Shown in pieces: positions 5,060 to 28,899 of a DNA stretch of 64,000 nt. Position numbers and translations under genes: made by a program. Origin of the DNA: Alphaproteobacteria bacterium (GTDB lineage Bacteria > Pseudomonadota > Alphaproteobacteria > Caulobacterales > Hyphomonadaceae); NCBI GenBank assembly GCA_016125405.1, contig WGLW01000021.1:1-64000 (forward strand), given 5' to 3'. Numbering within the stretch: position 1 is the stretch's first letter; each line of letters begins with the position of its first letter. The notes under the pieces are model-generated. The model did not search any database. It was not told the origin of the DNA and saw only the letters and a list, made by a program, of their open reading frames with translations.

Positions 5060-6502
5060 ATGTCCGATTCCAGCACCGCGCCCAAGCTAGCTCACACGGG
5101 ACCCTACTTCCTCTGCGGCATTGGCGGCAGCGGAATGTTGCCGCTGGCGCTGATCCTGAAGGCGCGGGGCTATGAGGTGGACGGATCGGACCGGTCGCTG
5201 GATGCCGGGCGGACGGCGGCGAAGTTCGACTTCCTGAAGGCGCGCGGCATCGGCCTTTATCCGCAGGACGGTTCGGGCGTCACCCGTGCGGAGCAGATGG
5301 TGGTGGCGTCCGCCGCCATCGAAGACACCGTTCCTGACATCGTTGCGGCGAAAAAGGTCGGCGCGCCGATCAAGAAACGACCTGACCTGCTGGCGGAGCT
5401 GGTGAATTCGGCGCCGGTGAGCGTCGCGGTGGGCGGTACGTCGGGCAAGTCGACCACGACGGGCATGATCGGCTGGATCCTCTACGCCACTCGCCGCGAC
5501 CCGACAGTGATGAATGGCGCCGTGATGAAGAATTTCGTTTCAGGCGATGCGCCGTTCGCATCCGCCATTGTCGGCGAAGGCGACATCTTCGTTTCGGAGG
5601 TGGACGAGAGCGACGGGTCGATCGCGCTTTATACGCCGACGGTGGCGGTGCTGAACAACATCGCGCTGGATCACAAGTCTATGGAGGAGCTGCGCACGCT
5701 GTTCAGCGAGTTCCTGACCGCGGCGCGCACCGCAGTGATCAACCTGGACAATCCCGAGACGCGCAAGCTGGCCGTGGGACTCAGCCTGGTCGGCGCGCTC
5801 ACCTATTCGCTGGAAAACCACAACGCCGATTTCTACGCCTCAGACATTGTGGTCGCGCCGGACGGCATGTCGTGCATCGTTACCGAACGTCATACCGGCG
5901 AGAAGGCGCGCGTGTGCCTGCAGACGCCGGGGCGGCACAATCTGTCGAACGGGCTTGCGGCCATCGCGGCGGCGCGGGCCTGCGGCGTGCCGCTGCGCGA
6001 CGCGACCATGGCGCTGATGAACTTCGTCGGCATCCGCCGGCGGCTCGAAGTGGTGGGAACGGCGAAGGACGTCACCGTCATCGACGACTTCGCGCATAAC
6101 CCGGACAAGATCGCCGCCACGATGGCGACGCTGCACGCTTTTCCCGGCCGGTTACTGGTGATGTGGCAGCCGCACGGCTACGGGCCGATCCGCCTGATGA
6201 AGGACGAGCTGATCAACTGCTTCGCGACAAACCTGGCGGAGAAAGACGTTCTGTTCATGCCCGAGCCCGCCTATTTCGGCGGGACGACGGACAGGTCGAT
6301 GGGATCGAGCGTGATCGCCGATGGCGTCAACGCGGCGGGCCGGACTGCCTTCGCGCTGCCCGATCGCGCGGCATGTGGCGACCGGCTGGTGGAATTGGCG
6401 CAGCCCGGCGATTTGATTGTTGTGATGGGCGCCCGGGACGATACGTTGTCCGAGTTCGCCGCGGACGTGCTGAAGCGCGTCGCTGCAAAACAATCCGGCT
6501 AG
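5060..6502 (+). CDS. Mur ligase family protein (MurC/Mpl-like)
   Basis: GIGGSGMLPLALILKARGYEVDGSD, VAVGGTSGKSTTTGMIGW, VDESDGSIALYTPTVAVLNNIALDH, VIDDFAHNPDKIAAT. Alternative start at 5036. Confidence 0.88.
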   Translation: MSDSSTAPKLAHTGPYFLCGIGGSGMLPLALILKARGYEVDGSDRSLDAGRTAAKFDFLKARGIGLYPQDGSGVTRAEQMVVASAAIEDTVPDIVAAKKVGAPIKKRPDLLAELVNSAPVSVAVGGTSGKSTTTGMIGWILYATRRDPTVMNGAVMKNFVSGDAPFASAIVGEGDIFVSEVDESDGSIALYTPTVAVLNNIALDHKSMEELRTLFSEFLTAARTAVINLDNPETRKLAVGLSLVGALTYSLENHNADFYASDIVVAPDGMSCIVTERHTGEKARVCLQTPGRHNLSNGLAAIAAARACGVPLRDATMALMNFVGIRRRLEVVGTAKDVTVIDDFAHNPDKIAATMATLHAFPGRLLVMWQPHGYGPIRLMKDELINCFATNLAEKDVLFMPEPAYFGGTTDRSMGSSVIADGVNAAGRTAFALPDRAACGDRLVELAQPGDLIVVMGARDDTLSEFAADVLKRVAAKQSG

Positions 6503-21297: not shown

Positions 21298-21566
21298 TGT
21301 CGCTGTGCTCCCGCGGCTTGAACGGACCATACGGCGCGGGCTTTAAGAAACCCTGACGCAAAGGTTTCACAGAGGTAATCTGCGAAGTTTTTTGGGAGAC
21401 GGGCGTTCGGCCTGTCGGAAGACCACACATCGCGGGGACGACGCCCCGAGGCGTTCTACATTTGCCCGAACGCACGACCAGACGCCGGGTTCCTGTGAAT
21501 TTCCTGCGGGACGACTATGCTGGAGCGCGCGTTCGGGCGATCCAGCCCGGGAAGGAGAGCAGACGA

Positions 21567-22223
21567 GTGGTGGCAGGCGGAAAATCCAGGGCCTCACAGG
21601 CTGTGCAGCCGGGCGCTCCGCGCGCCTGGCAGCGGATGCTGTCTGGCCGCCGGCTGGATCTGCTCGATCCCTCCCCTCTCGACATCGAGATCGAGGATAT
21701 CGCGCACGGTCTCGCCCGGGTCGCCCGCTGGAACGGACAAACACGCGGCGAGCATGCTTTTTCCGTGGCGCAGCATTCCGTTCTGGTCGAGCATTTCGTG
21801 GCGCAGCAATGGCCCGAAGCGACGCCAGGCGACCGGCTTGGCGCGCTGCTGCACGATGCTCCGGAATATGTGATCGGCGACATGATCTCGCCATTCAAGA
21901 CGGCGCTGGGTTTCGACTACCGCCAGTTCGAGGACAGGCTGGCGACCGCCATACATCTTCGCTTCGGGTTGCCGCCGAAGATGTCGCCCGAGGTATCGGC
22001 GCAGGTGAAGCGGGCGGACCAGGCGTCAGCCTTCTTCGAGGCGACGCGCCTCGCCGGCTTCGATATCGACGAGGCCCTGCGATTTTTTGGGGCGCCGCCG
22101 CCCGGAGGCGAACCGGACATGACGCCTCTTTCGCCAACTGACGCACAGGCCTTGTTTCTGACGAGGTTCGCATCCCTGATGGCGGCGGAGGACTCGGCAG
22201 GAGGGAAAGGCGCGCGCGACTGA
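21567..22223 (+). CDS. HD-domain phosphohydrolase (YfbR-like)
   Basis: RWNGQTRGEHAFSVAQHSVLV...LGALLHDAPEYVIGDMISPFK matches an HD-domain metal site; GTG start with AAGGAGA RBS preferred over 21462. Confidence 0.82.
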   Translation: MVAGGKSRASQAVQPGAPRAWQRMLSGRRLDLLDPSPLDIEIEDIAHGLARVARWNGQTRGEHAFSVAQHSVLVEHFVAQQWPEATPGDRLGALLHDAPEYVIGDMISPFKTALGFDYRQFEDRLATAIHLRFGLPPKMSPEVSAQVKRADQASAFFEATRLAGFDIDEALRFFGAPPPGGEPDMTPLSPTDAQALFLTRFASLMAAEDSAGGKGARD

Positions 22224-22753
22224 TGGCGATCTGGGTCTCCTCTCTCGCCATGGCGCCGAAGCTCGCGGCTACGCACAAGCCGGCGCGGATCGTCAGCCTG
22301 CTCAGCCCCTATGACACCTTCCCTGATTTCGCAGGCTTCGGTCCGGACCGTCATCTTCGCGTACCGATCCACGACATCGCGCAGGACATCGGCGACTGGC
22401 GGGCGCCGGATCTTTCGGACGCCGAAAGCCTGATCGCTTTCGTGGACACGTGGGACAGCCAGACGCCGATCCTGTTTCACTGCTGGGCGGGCATCAGCCG
22501 GTCGAGCGCCAGCGCCTTCATCACCGCGTGCCTGCACAATCCCGGTGCTGACGAGGAAGAAATCGCCTGGGCGATCCGCGACGCCTCGCCGACCGCATCG
22601 CCTAACCCACGCCTGATCGCGCACGCCGACGCAGTGATGGGGCGCAATGGCCGCATGGAAGCGGCGATCCAGGCGATCGGGCGCGGCGAGATTGCCGACG
22701 AAGCCCGCCCGTTCTCGATTTCTCCGACCTTCGGGGCGCGGCAACAGCCATGA
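22223..22753 (+). CDS. tyrosine-phosphatase-like protein
   Basis: Catalytic P-loop ILFHCWAGISRSSASAFI (HCxxGxSRS). Confidence 0.82.
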   Translation: MAIWVSSLAMAPKLAATHKPARIVSLLSPYDTFPDFAGFGPDRHLRVPIHDIAQDIGDWRAPDLSDAESLIAFVDTWDSQTPILFHCWAGISRSSASAFITACLHNPGADEEEIAWAIRDASPTASPNPRLIAHADAVMGRNGRMEAAIQAIGRGEIADEARPFSISPTFGARQQP

Positions 22754-23700
22754 CCGCGCCCATTGCCGTAGGCCTTTCCGCCGTGATCGTCGCGGCAGAC
22801 GCAGACGGACCCTATGCCCTTGTCACCCGCCATGGCGAAGCCGGATCCGGCCTGCCGCACGGCCAGTTCGACCCGGAAGGCCACCGCACGTTCGAACTGG
22901 GCCTGCGCGACTGGGTGCAGGCACAGACGGGATTTGAACTGGGCTATGTCGAGCAGCTCTACACCTTCGGCGACCGCGGCCGGGAATTGCCGCAGGCACA
23001 ACTGGGCGACGCCCCACGGGATGCGCGGCTCATTTCGGTCGGCTATCTCGCCCTGACGCCGGAGCGCACGGATATCTCCGCCTTCGATGCCGTTTGGCGC
23101 GACTGGTACAGTTTCTTTCCGTGGGAAGACCACCGGAACGGGCGGCCGGACCTTATCGATGCGACGATCGCGCCCGCCCTGCTCCACTGGGCCGACAGCG
23201 GCGGCCGAAGCGCCGCGGCTCGTCTCGACCGCGCCCGGCACGCCTTCGCCCTCGACGACCTGCCATGGGTCGAGGAGCGGACGCTCGAACGTTACGAACT
23301 GCTGTTCGAAGCCGGGCTGGCGCCCGAGGCGTCACGGGACCGGGGCAAGGCTCCGCCCAGGCTCGCCGGCCCGCTTGGCGAACCGATGATCTCCGATCAC
23401 CGGCGCATTCTGGCGACCGCCATCGGCCGCCTGCGGGGCAAGATCAAATACCGTCCCGTGGTGTTCGAATTGATGCCGGAACGGTTCACGCTCTCGGACC
23501 TGCAGAAAGTGGTCGAAAGCCTGCTCGGCCTGCCCCTGCACAAGCAGAACTTTCGCCGGGCGCTCGACCGCTCCGGACTGGTCGAAGGCAGCGGCGCATT
23601 CGCTACAGCGACGGGCGGCCGGCCGGCGGAGCTGTTCCGCGTGCGCCGCGAGGCGTTGCGAGATGGCGCCGCGGTTGGCGTACAGACGCCCCGCGCCTGA
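22750..23700 (+). CDS. nrtR: NrtR-like Nudix-related transcriptional regulator
   Basis: N-terminal Nudix-like fold (AVIVAADADGPYALVTRHGEAGSGLPHGQFDPEGHRTFELGLRDWVQAQTG, degenerate Nudix box) plus C-terminal winged helix KIKYRPVVFELMPERFTLSDLQKVVESLLGLPLHKQNFRRALDRSGLVEGSG; next to nadA. Confidence 0.82.
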   Translation: MTAPIAVGLSAVIVAADADGPYALVTRHGEAGSGLPHGQFDPEGHRTFELGLRDWVQAQTGFELGYVEQLYTFGDRGRELPQAQLGDAPRDARLISVGYLALTPERTDISAFDAVWRDWYSFFPWEDHRNGRPDLIDATIAPALLHWADSGGRSAAARLDRARHAFALDDLPWVEERTLERYELLFEAGLAPEASRDRGKAPPRLAGPLGEPMISDHRRILATAIGRLRGKIKYRPVVFELMPERFTLSDLQKVVESLLGLPLHKQNFRRALDRSGLVEGSGAFATATGGRPAELFRVRREALRDGAAVGVQTPRA

Positions 23701-23763: not shown

Positions 23764-23784
23764 TTATGCTCAAAGTGAGTTAAA
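23764..23784. promoter_or_regulatory. Putative NrtR operator 1 (TTATGCTCA-AAG-TGAGTTAAA)
   Basis: Imperfect palindrome sharing a half-site with operator 2; in the nrtR-nadA intergenic region. Confidence 0.55.
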
Positions 23785-23868
23785 CTTCTGGCTTCTGGGC
23801 AGAACGGCGCCTAAATCGATCGATCCGGACAACGCCTTTCCCTTGAAAGGCATTTTTTCGGACCTAGG

Positions 23869-23889
23869 TTATACTCAGATTGAGCATAA
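23869..23889. promoter_or_regulatory. Putative NrtR operator 2 (TTATACTCA-GAT-TGAGCATAA)
   Basis: 8/9 matched inverted repeat, about 45 bp upstream of the nadA start; contains a TATACT -10-like sequence. Confidence 0.68.
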
Positions 23890-23933: not shown

Positions 23934-25073
23934 ATGGCCCGCATTATCGACTTCGGACCCGTTCCCGCAATTCCCGGCGCCCGTCGCAAGGCCAAACCCG
24001 CCGAAGCCCGGGGGCTCGCCTATACGGCCGAGGTGAAGGCCGCGACGGATGCGCTTTATCCTCTCGTCGAGGATTTCGTGACGCCGATGGAGTGGCCGGC
24101 GATCGCGCCGCTGGTTCATGGTATCAACACCCTGAAAAAGCAGCGAAACGCTGTTGTCCTCGCCCACAACTACATGACGCCGGACGTGTTCCGGCTGGTC
24201 GGCGACTTCCAGGGCGACAGCCTGCAGCTGGCCCGCGAGGCGGCCCGGACCGATGCCAAGGTCATTGTCCAGGCAGGCGTGCACTTCATGGCCGAAACCT
24301 CGAAAATCCTGTCTCCGGACAAGACAGTGCTGATTCCCGACCTGCGCGCCGGCTGCTCGCTGGCGGCCTCGATCACGGGCGCTGACGTGCGCCTGATCAA
24401 GGAAACGCACTCGGGCCTTCCGGTCGTGACGTATGTGAACACAACGGCCGACGTTAAGGCCGAATGCGACATCACCTGCACCTCCTCGAACGCCGTCCAG
24501 GTGGTCGAGCATGTGGCGAAGGAATGGGGCGTTGATCGCGTGATCCTGCTGCCGGACGAGTTTCTGGCCCGCAACGTCGCCGCCAACACGGATGTGCGAA
24601 TCATCACCTGGCACGGCCGCTGCGAGGTGCACGAGAAGTTCTCAGGCGAGGATGTAAGGCAGATTCGCGACGCCCATCCCGGCGTCATTGTGCTCGCGCA
24701 CCCGGAATGTCCACCAGATGTCCTTGAAGAAGCCGACTTTGCAGGCTCAACCTCTGCGCTGTCGCACTATGTGAAACAGAAGTCGCCTCATAAGGTGGTT
24801 CTGCTCACCGAGTGCTCGATGAGCGACAATGTCGCCGCGGAAAACCCCGGCGTGGAGTTCGTGAAGCCATGCAATCTCTGCCCTCACATGAAACGCATCT
24901 CGCTGGAGAACATCTACGACGCGCTCCGCGACATGAAGCACGAGGTCACGGTGCCGGAGGACGTCCGCGTGCGCGCCAAGGCCGCGATCGACGCCATGCT
25001 GGCCCTGCCGAAGATGGCGACGCCGCCGGGCTTCAAGGTCCACGCGGATCTCGCGCAACTCGTGGTCATGTGA
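23934..25073 (+). CDS. nadA: quinolinate synthase
   Basis: VVLAHNYMTPDVFRLVGDFQGDSLQLAREAA, FMAETSKILSPDKTVLIPD, AGCSLA, HPECPPDV, TECSMSDNV, CNLCPHMKRISLENI. Start trimmed to MARIIDFG. Confidence 0.95.
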   Translation: MARIIDFGPVPAIPGARRKAKPAEARGLAYTAEVKAATDALYPLVEDFVTPMEWPAIAPLVHGINTLKKQRNAVVLAHNYMTPDVFRLVGDFQGDSLQLAREAARTDAKVIVQAGVHFMAETSKILSPDKTVLIPDLRAGCSLAASITGADVRLIKETHSGLPVVTYVNTTADVKAECDITCTSSNAVQVVEHVAKEWGVDRVILLPDEFLARNVAANTDVRIITWHGRCEVHEKFSGEDVRQIRDAHPGVIVLAHPECPPDVLEEADFAGSTSALSHYVKQKSPHKVVLLTECSMSDNVAAENPGVEFVKPCNLCPHMKRISLENIYDALRDMKHEVTVPEDVRVRAKAAIDAMLALPKMATPPGFKVHADLAQLVVM

Positions 25074-25546
25074 TGGGGCGCATGCTCCGCACCTCTGTCA
25101 CGGTGGCGGGACTGCTTGGCGTCATCGCCGCCGGCCCGGCCTGGGCGGACGATCTCAAGGGCCAGTGGCTGTTCGACACCTCGACGTTCGACGGCGACTG
25201 CATGATCAAGGGGCAGATGACGTTCACGCCGACGTCTTCGCCGAACTCCTATACCTGCGTCTTTGTTTCCGAACAGGTCTGCGGGCCGCTGCATCCGGAA
25301 CTGCGCTCCATCAAGGTTCAGCAAGACTGCACGGCGACGAAGATCGGCAGCCAGGTGGCCGTGAAGAGCGTCGTCAATCACGTCATCTCGCGCACACCGA
25401 TGATCGAAAATCCGCAGGACTATTATCTGGCCGACAACTTCATCGTGACGATGTCCAAGAGCCGCACCGAGATGCGCGGCGGTCACTATGACGAGCAGCG
25501 CCAGCTCAAGGCGCACTTCTGGCGCGATGTCGACCTCATCAGCTAG
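25073..25546 (+). CDS. secreted four-cysteine protein, paralog 1 (nadA-nadB intercalated family)
   Basis: Signal peptide MGRMLRTSVTVAGLLGVIAAGPAWA; C-x18-C-x7-C-x15-C; ends AHFWRDVDLIS. Start overlaps nadA stop (TGATG). Confidence 0.88.
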   Translation: MGRMLRTSVTVAGLLGVIAAGPAWADDLKGQWLFDTSTFDGDCMIKGQMTFTPTSSPNSYTCVFVSEQVCGPLHPELRSIKVQQDCTATKIGSQVAVKSVVNHVISRTPMIENPQDYYLADNFIVTMSKSRTEMRGGHYDEQRQLKAHFWRDVDLIS

Positions 25547-25562
25547 AACTCCGGGAGATGGC

Positions 25563-26045
25563 ATGGCGCATCGGATAACCCGGTCAGCGGCGGCCATCGC
25601 ACTTGCAACGGCATGGCTTCCCGGCGCCGCCCTTGCGGAGGGCATTGCGGGAAGCTGGAAATTCCAGACCGACCGCTTGCCCAGCAATGGCTGCACGATC
25701 TCCGGCGACATCGTGTTTCACGAAACCAAAACGGCCGGCCGGTTTGCGTGCGAATTCGTCTCGCGCGAGGACTGCACCACTCCAGAGGGCGTCGAGACCT
25801 TCCAGAAAGTGAAACAATCCTGCAGCGCAGAGCTCGACGGCGAGACCGTGACGATAACCAGCAAGGTCGAGCAGGTTCTCGACGCCGGTCCGGCGGAGGA
25901 GCGCAACCGCCTGATGCGGACAGACTCTTACCTGCCGGACGATTTTTCCGTGCACGCGAACGACGAAGGCGGCTTCGAGGGCTTCTTTCATTCCATACAG
26001 AAGGCGGGCGTCCGCTTCTGGCGTGCGCCGGATCTTGTTTCGTGA
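25563..26045 (+). CDS. secreted four-cysteine protein, paralog 2
   Basis: Signal peptide MAHRITRSAAAIALATAWLPGAALA; GSWKFQTD..., C-x18-C-x7-C-x15-C; ends VRFWRAPDLVS. RBS GGGAG. Confidence 0.88.
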   Translation: MAHRITRSAAAIALATAWLPGAALAEGIAGSWKFQTDRLPSNGCTISGDIVFHETKTAGRFACEFVSREDCTTPEGVETFQKVKQSCSAELDGETVTITSKVEQVLDAGPAEERNRLMRTDSYLPDDFSVHANDEGGFEGFFHSIQKAGVRFWRAPDLVS

Positions 26046-26503
26046 GCCTCCGCTCCCGCCTCATCCCATTTGCCCTGCTTGCGGTCGCCCCGGCGGCCGC
26101 AGCGCAGACGGCGGCCGGCGACTGGAAGTTCGAGACCGGACAGGTCGCCGGGATATGCAGGCTGTCGGGCGACATGGAAATCTCGAAGCCCGATGCGCAC
26201 GGCGCGAGCACCTGCCGTTTTGTCGCCAAGCAGTCCTGCCCAGGCGATCCGCCGCTGGAATTCTCGGTCCAGCAAAGCTGCTCTGTCGCCAGATCGGGCA
26301 AGAAGGTGGAGATCACCAGCAGGATCGAGCGCGTGCTGAGCGTCAAACCGGATGACTTTCTCGATACCGTCAAGCGTGGCTACGCGCCGGACAACTTCTC
26401 CGTCAGGCTCAACGCGTCCGGCACCGAGATGTCCGGCCTGTTTCATTCAAAGAGCGTGTCCACCGTCCGCTTCTGGCGGCCGAACAGCGATCTGGTGTCC
26501 TGA
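26042..26503 (+). CDS. secreted four-cysteine protein, paralog 3 (GTG start)
   Basis: GTGA overlap with paralog 2 stop; (V)SLRSRLIPFALLAVAPAAAAQ signal peptide; GDWKFET..., C-x18-C-x7-C-x13-C; ends VRFWRPNSDLVS. Confidence 0.86.
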   Translation: MSLRSRLIPFALLAVAPAAAAQTAAGDWKFETGQVAGICRLSGDMEISKPDAHGASTCRFVAKQSCPGDPPLEFSVQQSCSVARSGKKVEITSRIERVLSVKPDDFLDTVKRGYAPDNFSVRLNASGTEMSGLFHSKSVSTVRFWRPNSDLVS

Positions 26504-26509
26504 GGGCGT

Positions 26510-28042
26510 ATGACGGGCAACCGGGATATTCTGATCGTCGGCGCTGGACTGGCCGGCCTCTTCCTGGCGCTCAAGCTGGCGCCGCGGCGATGCACCGTGA
26601 TCGCGCTGGCGCCTCTGGGCCAGGCGGCGGCGTCGGCCTGGGCGCAGGGCGGCATGGCGGCCGCGCTTTCGGCTGACGACAATCCGGAGCTGCACGCGGC
26701 CGACACGATCGCCGCCGGCGCCGGCATCGTCGATCCTGTGGTCGCGCAGATGATCGCAGAGAACGGCCCGGCGCGCGTCCGTGACCTGCTGGCGATGGGC
26801 GTACCTTTTGACCGGACGCCGAATGGCGATCTTGCCCTGTCGCTGGAGGCCGCCCACTCCCATCCGCGCGTCGCCCGGGTCGCGGGAGACCTGGCGGGAA
26901 AAGCGATCATGGAGGCGCTGGCGCTCGCGGTCGCTGCAGCCGGACATATCGAACTGATCGACGGCGTGAGAGCGCTGGCGCTGCTGCAGGATGCCTCGGG
27001 CCGCATCGGCGGCGTGCTGGCGCAGGGGCCTTCCGGCGACGCCGAAGAGATATACGCCCGTGAAACGATCCTTTGCGCTGGCGGATCGGGCGGGCTTTAC
27101 GCCATCACCACCAATCCGAAATCCTCGCAGGGCGACGCCATCGCCATGGCGTACCGCGCAGGCGCGCTGGTGGCCGATCCAGAATTTGTCCAGTTCCATC
27201 CCACGGCCATCGACATCGGCCGTGACCCGGCGCCGCTGGCGACCGAGGCGCTGCGCGGGGAAGGCGCCAAGCTGGTCGACCGCAATGGCCGGGCCTTCAT
27301 GTGCGACTATCATCCGGACTGCGAGCTGGCGCCGCGAGACGAAGTCGCCCGCGCCATCCATGCCGAACGCGCGGCCGGACGCGGCGCGTTCCTCGATTGC
27401 CGTGCGGCGGTGGGCGATCACTTCCCGGAACATTTCCCGACAGTTTTCGGCGCCTGCATGTCGGCCGGCATCGATCCGCGCACGGCGCCGATCCCGGTCG
27501 CGCCGGCGATGCACTATCACATGGGCGGCGTCGCTTCGGATCTGTGGGGGCGTACAACTCTGGAAGGTCTGTCGGTGTGCGGAGAAAGCGCTTCCACAGG
27601 CGCGCACGGAGGCAATCGCCTTGCGTCGAACTCCTTGCTGGAGGCGGTTGTCTTCGCCGAGCGCATCGCCCGCCGCCTTAAGGACGCGACGCTTGGCGAA
27701 CCCGGAACCGCAACGGCCGACACGCCCGTCGAACTGCCCGCCGAAGACCTCAACGAGCTGCGCAAGCGGATGCACAGCGAGGCCGGCGTGATCCGAAACG
27801 CGGCCGGGCTCGGCATGACGCTGGACTGGCTCCGCGATGCAAGAAAACGCGTTGGCTGGTCGCGGCCGTTGGCGACGGCGCAGCTGATCGTCGAAGCGGC
27901 CCTGGCGCGGAAGGAAAGCCGGGGCGGCCACTTCCGCAGCGACTATCCGACGAGCATCGCCCCAGAACGCACCTTCCTGCGCCTCGGTCCCGACGGCGCA
28001 CCCATCACCAGCCACGCAAAACCCGAGGAGCCGGCGGAATGA
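26510..28042 (+). CDS. nadB: L-aspartate oxidase
   Basis: DILIVGAGLAGLFLALKL, AWAQGGMAAALS, EFVQFHPTAI, MHYHMGGV, GAHGGNRLASNSLLEAVVF. Confidence 0.95.
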   Translation: MTGNRDILIVGAGLAGLFLALKLAPRRCTVIALAPLGQAAASAWAQGGMAAALSADDNPELHAADTIAAGAGIVDPVVAQMIAENGPARVRDLLAMGVPFDRTPNGDLALSLEAAHSHPRVARVAGDLAGKAIMEALALAVAAAGHIELIDGVRALALLQDASGRIGGVLAQGPSGDAEEIYARETILCAGGSGGLYAITTNPKSSQGDAIAMAYRAGALVADPEFVQFHPTAIDIGRDPAPLATEALRGEGAKLVDRNGRAFMCDYHPDCELAPRDEVARAIHAERAAGRGAFLDCRAAVGDHFPEHFPTVFGACMSAGIDPRTAPIPVAPAMHYHMGGVASDLWGRTTLEGLSVCGESASTGAHGGNRLASNSLLEAVVFAERIARRLKDATLGEPGTATADTPVELPAEDLNELRKRMHSEAGVIRNAAGLGMTLDWLRDARKRVGWSRPLATAQLIVEAALARKESRGGHFRSDYPTSIAPERTFLRLGPDGAPITSHAKPEEPAE

Positions 28043-28899
28043 CTGACGCCCTGCCCATCCCGCCGCTGCCCGATATTGTGATCGAACCGCTCGTGCGCCT
28101 GGCGCTGAGCGAAGACCTGGGCCGCGCAGGAGACATCACGACGGATGCGGTCATTCGCGCCGACGAGCGCATGATGGCGACCATCGCTGCGCGCGAGTCT
28201 GGCGTGGGCGCCGGCTTCGACGCAGCGCGCCTGGCGCTTCGCCTCATCGATGCGGATGTGACGTGGGATGCGCAGATCGCAGAGGGCGCAGGCTTCGAGT
28301 CCGGCGATGCGCTGGTGCGGTTGTCCGGCGCTGCGCGGTCGATCCTGATGGCGGAACGCGTGATGCTCAACTTCATTGGCCCGCTATCGGGCGTCGCGAC
28401 CCTGACGCGCCGATATGTCGATGCGGTTGAGGGAACCGGAGCGCGTATCGTCTGCACGCGAAAGACGACGCCCGGCTTCCGCGCCCTGGAAAAGCGCGCC
28501 GTGCGACTGGGCGGCGGCGTCAATCACCGCCTCGGTCTCGATGACGCGATCCTGATCAAGGACAACCACATCGCGGCGGCAGGCGGCGTCGGCGCTGCGC
28601 TCAAGCGCGCGAAAGTCTCGGTGGGCCACCTTCGCGCCATTGAGATTGAGGTCGACACGCTCGACCAGCTGGCCGAAGCGCTGCCGCTGAAACCGGACGC
28701 CGTGTTGCTGGACAATATGAAGCTGGACACGCTGCGTGAGGCGGTGAAGCGGGTGGCGGGTCAGTGCAAGACCGAAGCGTCTGGCGGCGTGCGGCTGGAA
28801 ACCGTGCGAGCGATCGCTGAAACCGGCGTCGACTTCATTTCGGTCGGCGCGCTGACGCACTCGGCGATAAATCTCGATATCGGCCTCGATTACGCCTGA
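28039..28899 (+). CDS. nadC: nicotinate-nucleotide diphosphorylase (carboxylating)
   Basis: LSEDLGRAGDITTDAV, RKTTPGFRALEKRAVRLGGGVNHRLGLDDAILIKDNHI, EIEVDTLDQ, LDNMK; overlaps nadB by 4 bp. Confidence 0.95.
   Translation: MTDALPIPPLPDIVIEPLVRLALSEDLGRAGDITTDAVIRADERMMATIAARESGVGAGFDAARLALRLIDADVTWDAQIAEGAGFESGDALVRLSGAARSILMAERVMLNFIGPLSGVATLTRRYVDAVEGTGARIVCTRKTTPGFRALEKRAVRLGGGVNHRLGLDDAILIKDNHIAAAGGVGAALKRAKVSVGHLRAIEIEVDTLDQLAEALPLKPDAVLLDNMKLDTLREAVKRVAGQCKTEASGGVRLETVRAIAETGVDFISVGALTHSAINLDIGLDYA

Follow-up and report, generated by a model that had tools for sequence, protein, structure and literature searches.

An exported family of predicted eight-stranded barrel proteins encoded between nadA and nadB in a putatively NadQ-controlled operon

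Within the window analyzed here, a 64,000-nucleotide stretch of an alphaproteobacterial genome, three adjacent genes (referred to below as X1, X2, and X3) are found between nadA and nadB. They encode exported proteins of a new, so far unannotated family that places a known fold class in a novel context and for which a predicted fold, a disulfide map, and a phylogeny are presented here. We tentatively regard these proteins as disulfide-stapled barrels that are produced from the NadQ-controlled nad operon and might serve in the periplasm as binders of a small ligand tied to this pathway, a reading that we consider possible but short of probable. A single operon would then supply X1 to X3 along with the three enzymes quinolinate synthase, aspartate oxidase, and quinolinate phosphoribosyltransferase, with X1 as the core binder and the additional, faster-evolving paralogs as specialized versions or partners. 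De novo NAD synthesis is regarded as a purely cytoplasmic process; if X1 binds a pathway intermediate as a dedicated carrier, a less likely version of this reading, it would be partly an envelope process, in which an intermediate is retained, recaptured, or shared. That a conserved exported family is encoded in an NAD operon, shares the repressor of this pathway, and, in the case of X1, is constrained as strongly as the enzymes suggests a step in the envelope that has yet to be explored.

The operon occupies the plus strand of the window. The nadA gene (positions 23934 to 25073; quinolinate synthase; Pfam ID PF02445, E value of 7e-109) is followed by X1 (25073 to 25546; 157 aa), X2 (25563 to 26045; 160 aa), and X3 (26042 to 26503; 153 aa, with a GTG start codon). 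X3 adjoins nadB (26510 to 28042; L-aspartate oxidase; PF00890, E value of 1e-74, and PF02910), and nadC (28039 to 28899; quinolinate phosphoribosyltransferase; PF01729, E value of 2e-60, and PF02749) comes last. The Pfam matches bear out the identities that an earlier note on this DNA had assigned to the three enzymes. The coordinates and lengths of the three adjoining reading frames and all five junctions that it described were reproduced from the sequence as well: nadA and X1 share TGATG, X1 and X2 are separated by 16 bp, X2 and X3 overlap in GTGA, X3 and nadB are 6 bp apart, and nadB and nadC overlap in ATGA. Tight junctions, including 4-bp overlaps between paralogs, recur across many genera, and the spacing suggests that X is cotranscribed with nadA. 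No transporter or receptor gene was found within the operon, and literature searches for the nadA-X-nadB arrangement yielded no paper describing it.

The gene upstream of nadA (22750 to 23700, plus strand) contains an NrtR_WHD domain and looks NrtR-like at first sight. It is nadQ, coding for a NadQ-type repressor of NAD biosynthesis, as phmmer matches its product to the solved homolog 7q91 with an E value of 1.9e-83. COG4111 is the published regulator of nadABC (PMC5343134), and the sequence TTATACTCAGATTGAGCATAA at positions 23869 to 23889 (plus strand), upstream of nadA, is a perfect match to the NadQ motif given there, ttATRCTCannntGAGYATaa. A degenerate second NadQ-like box with 2 mismatches is seen at positions 23766 to 23782, and a terminator-like hairpin with a T run, a consensus match only, is located between nadQ and nadA at positions 23834 to 23851 (both on the plus strand). 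One or two NadQ boxes precede nadA in almost all loci, with two in most relatives, and none was detected in the nadA-nadB interval of about 40 loci, which by position places X under NadQ regulation. Neither the regulator nor its box figured in the earlier note, which had tied the X proteins to NAD status; the NadQ box and the operon position support this tie well at the level of expression, a support that does not extend to function. With nadQ and a perfect box ahead of the transcription unit, the X operon resembles the known NadQ regulon. However, the targets described in the sections of the literature covered here are nadABC, nadE/nadD, and Bug genes, with no mention of genes for exported barrels.

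X1, X2, and X3 display the cysteine spacing C-x18-C-x7-C-x15/15/13-C, N-terminal signal peptides, and the sequence motifs GxWxFxT, CxFV, Y(L/A)(A/P)D(N/D)F, and FWR..DL(I/V)S, all of which had been noticed previously. Their divergent homology is confirmed by BLASTP: X1 and X3 are 33% identical across 131 aa (E value of 4e-20), and a search with X2 retrieved X3 (2e-22) and X1 (2e-12) and no further match in the source genome (G000; 3.86 Mb, 99.99% complete). Approximately 50 homologs, spread over 22 genomes from the window's family, and purifying selection place the observation far above chance. The family indeed has no established name: Pfam, NCBIfam, PHROG, and PADLOC searches with X1 to X3 returned only noise, and a sequence profile search of the PDB returned nothing. 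A hydrophobic signal region is present in all 49 full-length members tested. In an alignment of 74 proteins, the residues that never vary are G4, W6, G21, C60, Y92, D95, and G110 (mature X1 numbering), and only R or K occurs at position 125. These fixed residues (G, W, Y, D, G, and R) resemble barrel architecture rather than a carboxylate site, and the conserved strand face is mostly apolar. Conservation of the extreme C terminus is unusual: the last residue is S or G in 63 of the 74 proteins, mostly as I/V-S or I/V-G, with the proteins of one genus (g23) stopping a few residues sooner, at R.

Cysteine covariation among the same 74 proteins, whose rows are related by descent and whose counts are not independent events, reveals two pairs. 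Alignment columns 44 and 82 both hold a cysteine in 63 proteins and both lack it in 11, and the invariant cysteine in column 99 is accompanied by one in either column 74 (57 proteins) or column 113 (17 proteins), never by both and never by neither. This pattern strongly supports the predicted disulfides C43-C70 and C62-C86 in X1, and the pairing supports folding in an oxidizing compartment. The partner of the invariant cysteine lies on strand C in some lineages and on strand E in others, with no partnerless intermediate; this switch of the second disulfide is found in genera of f3, another family of the order.

The AlphaFold2 model of mature X1, built from 23 sequences (pLDDT of 93.4, pTM of 0.84), is a single barrel of about 131 residues with eight strands in meander order; a single-sequence model of X3 (pLDDT of 59) shows a similar strand order. 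Together with the sequence conservation, the model strongly supports a lipocalin/calycin-like barrel as the predicted fold class, which does not imply membership in the lipocalin family. As in retinol-binding protein and other calycin barrels, the eight antiparallel strands run up and down, with GxW on the first strand (both G and W in all 74 proteins) and the ubiquitous R/K on the last one, and Foldseek probabilities against such barrels reach 0.92 to 0.99 at TM scores of about 0.5. However, none of 44 members matches the Pfam lipocalin profile, X1 to X3 have no match in NCBIfam, the C-terminal α-helix of lipocalins was not found after strand 8 in the X1 model, and the disulfide pattern is the family's own. 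In the Foldseek comparison with the PDB, TM scores were 0.56 to 0.57 for ToxS, 0.52 to 0.55 for retinol-binding protein, and 0.50 for Cap15; a viral fold library gave generic barrels only. The first-ranked match, anti-sigma factor RsfG (E value of 9.5e-4), was set aside because of its rmsd of 13 Å.

The best credible structural neighbor, the ToxS periplasmic domain (rmsd of 4.6 to 4.8), is likewise a periplasmic barrel, and ToxS pairs with ToxR. It thus provides a model for an alternative that we consider unlikely, namely, that the X proteins are accessory periplasmic regulators or hetero-oligomers, in which the paralogs associate among themselves or with a partner in the membrane and signal the NAD or energy status to the envelope. 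The coupled overlaps between paralog genes, which suggest balanced expression, and the conserved C-terminal residue would be in keeping with such a role, but the TM score is only about 0.56, ToxS is membrane anchored and has just 7 to 9% identity to X, and no gene for a membrane partner is linked to X. Moreover, some genera (g5 and g6) encode a single copy, so that hetero-oligomers cannot be the common mode.

When X2 was searched against the source genome and 40 relatives, 22 of these 41 genomes gave a match, all in the window's family, and the neighborhoods of 21 relatives in that family contain 1 to 4 X copies each, always between nadA and nadB. A profile of 44 sequences, run against 299 genomes of the order (species representatives, several of them metagenome bins), detected X in 87 genomes, including all 61 sampled from the window's family, 25 from f3, and 1 from f4. 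In f3 and f4, X is flanked by nadA and nadB in 17 of 19 neighborhoods; in L070 and L085, the contig stops after nadA-X. Altogether, X directly follows nadA in 40 of 40 neighborhoods, and nadB comes next in all 38 in which the contig continues. The survey of neighborhoods proposed in the earlier note therefore shows homologs that are not scattered: every copy located within the order is behind nadA, and none was found away from the nad cluster in the searched genomes, even at 17 to 30% identity. Class- and phylum-wide samples added two matching genomes outside the order, G427 (a weak match, to a lipoprotein) and G907 (E value of 9e-10), neither with its homolog near nad genes; the G907 protein retrieved only itself from 198 genomes of its own order. 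These distant homologs outside the window's order are encoded at positions 6305 to 6763 of L119 (minus strand) and 6412 to 6897 of L084 (plus strand), the L119 one with the f3-type disulfide pair and a YxxDxF motif.

Several families of the order keep nadA-nadB without X, which makes X dispensable for NAD synthesis as such. In these families, the gap is usually 44 to 206 bp or is filled with unrelated genes; in L088, L096, L103, and L106, the slot holds an M50-type protease, a VOC-type protein, a larger exported protein, and a small membrane protein (named by eye). Furthermore, HD-PTP-nadQ upstream and cell wall hydrolase-ppdK downstream are conserved as well, and since the latter two flanking genes, which have no NAD function, are as syntenic across the order as X is, the position of X alone is no proof of a metabolic link. 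All this, along with the sporadic unlinked homologs, would agree with X being a general envelope barrel whose gene entered the nadA-nadB gap a single time in an ancestor, was inherited vertically, and was retained by a stable neighborhood, with the NAD link amounting to shared transcription, an explanation that we likewise hold to be possible without being probable. The stronger points against it, better than synteny, are that X sits inside a translationally tight operon and not next to it, that all duplications stayed in the slot, and that X1 is as constrained as nadA.

The dN/dS values for X1 (0.03 to 0.11) are comparable to those for nadA (0.05 to 0.13) and nadB (0.08 to 0.16), in strong support of X1 being under similar purifying selection. 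The values rise to 0.15 to 0.18 in X2-position copies and to 0.22 to 0.32 in the last copy. In the tree, which has few columns and unresolved deep forks, duplication is repeated and mostly confined to individual lineages; X1 forms one subfamily throughout the genus and is always the first copy there, and the X2 subfamily is present in 4 of its 13 genomes. Copy number is genus-specific, so the description of these proteins as triplicated holds for the window but is too narrow for its relatives, in which the X1 subfamily is the constrained core. Copy-number turnover and the divergence of X2 and X3 might also be expected of fast-changing surface proteins under phage or competitor pressure, with NAD depletion, a common signal of attack, as the reason for their control by NadQ. 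We consider this very improbable, as X1 is strongly conserved, neither PADLOC nor PHROG gave a match, and no dN/dS value is near 1. One copy, at approximately 6709 to 7190 of L061 (minus strand), is without the usual start, with its 5' part matched only in another frame and with two in-frame stops; it may be decaying or start elsewhere.

As for the ligand, PncB, NadV (PF17767/PF04095), and PnuC (PF04973) were not found in the nearly complete source genome, and quinolinate, used via NadC, therefore appears to be the only outside pyridine precursor available to this organism. A role in nicotinate or NMN uptake was down-weighted on the same grounds. X was found in none of the 22 NAPRTase-bearing genomes of the order, which is not evidence of function because both genes follow families and phylogeny confounds the comparison. 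Given that the genome has NadC and no enzyme was found for nicotinate or nicotinamide, the first candidate ligand would be quinolinate or a near relative, which X might hold or recapture, whether leaked by the cell or present in its surroundings. By analogy, a periplasmic binder of quinolinate or a related compound is conceivable, if somewhat doubtful; rather less likely are carriers dedicated to NAD, with X1 binding quinolinate or another intermediate and the paralogs serving related ligands.

The precedent comes from Bug69 and Bug27 of betaproteobacteria, which, in the parts of the report covered here, are periplasmic quinolinate binders linked to NadQ and nadC, with no adjacent transporter; inactivation of bug69 left growth on quinolinate unimpaired (PMC11452294). 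X shares this location, genomic tie, and lack of a neighboring transporter, but Bug69 and Bug27 are described there as TctC-type solute-binding proteins and were studied in species without the full de novo pathway, whereas the hosts of X have a complete one. With X, the periplasmic proteins linked to NadQ come to include an unrelated fold. Bug/TctC proteins have a two-domain substrate-binding fold of about 300 aa, in contrast to the small single barrel of X.

The lipocalin-like barrel and the Bug precedent make it plausible that X might bind or sense a pyridine metabolite, as suggested earlier; the other suggestion, that X protects the Fe-S/FAD enzymes, is unsupported, since these enzymes reside in the cytoplasm and X is exported. 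The preferred reading, periplasmic binding of a pathway-tied ligand, is favored by the position behind nadA in 21 loci of the family and 19 of other families, the NadQ box, the tight junctions, the constraint on X1, the predicted barrel, the cysteine covariation, the salvage enzymes not found, and the Bug proteins. It is weakened by the missing transporter or receptor gene, the syntenic non-NAD neighbors, the X-less families, the apolar strand face, the architecture-like fixed residues, and the two distant homologs without nad linkage.

Upstream of the operon (21462 to 23700), nadQ belongs to a tight, conserved group with an HD-domain nucleotidase-like gene and a dual-specificity-phosphatase-like gene. 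The phosphatase-like gene weakly matches PTP-NADK, in which a phosphatase is joined to NAD kinase; this group possibly represents more NAD or nucleotide housekeeping.
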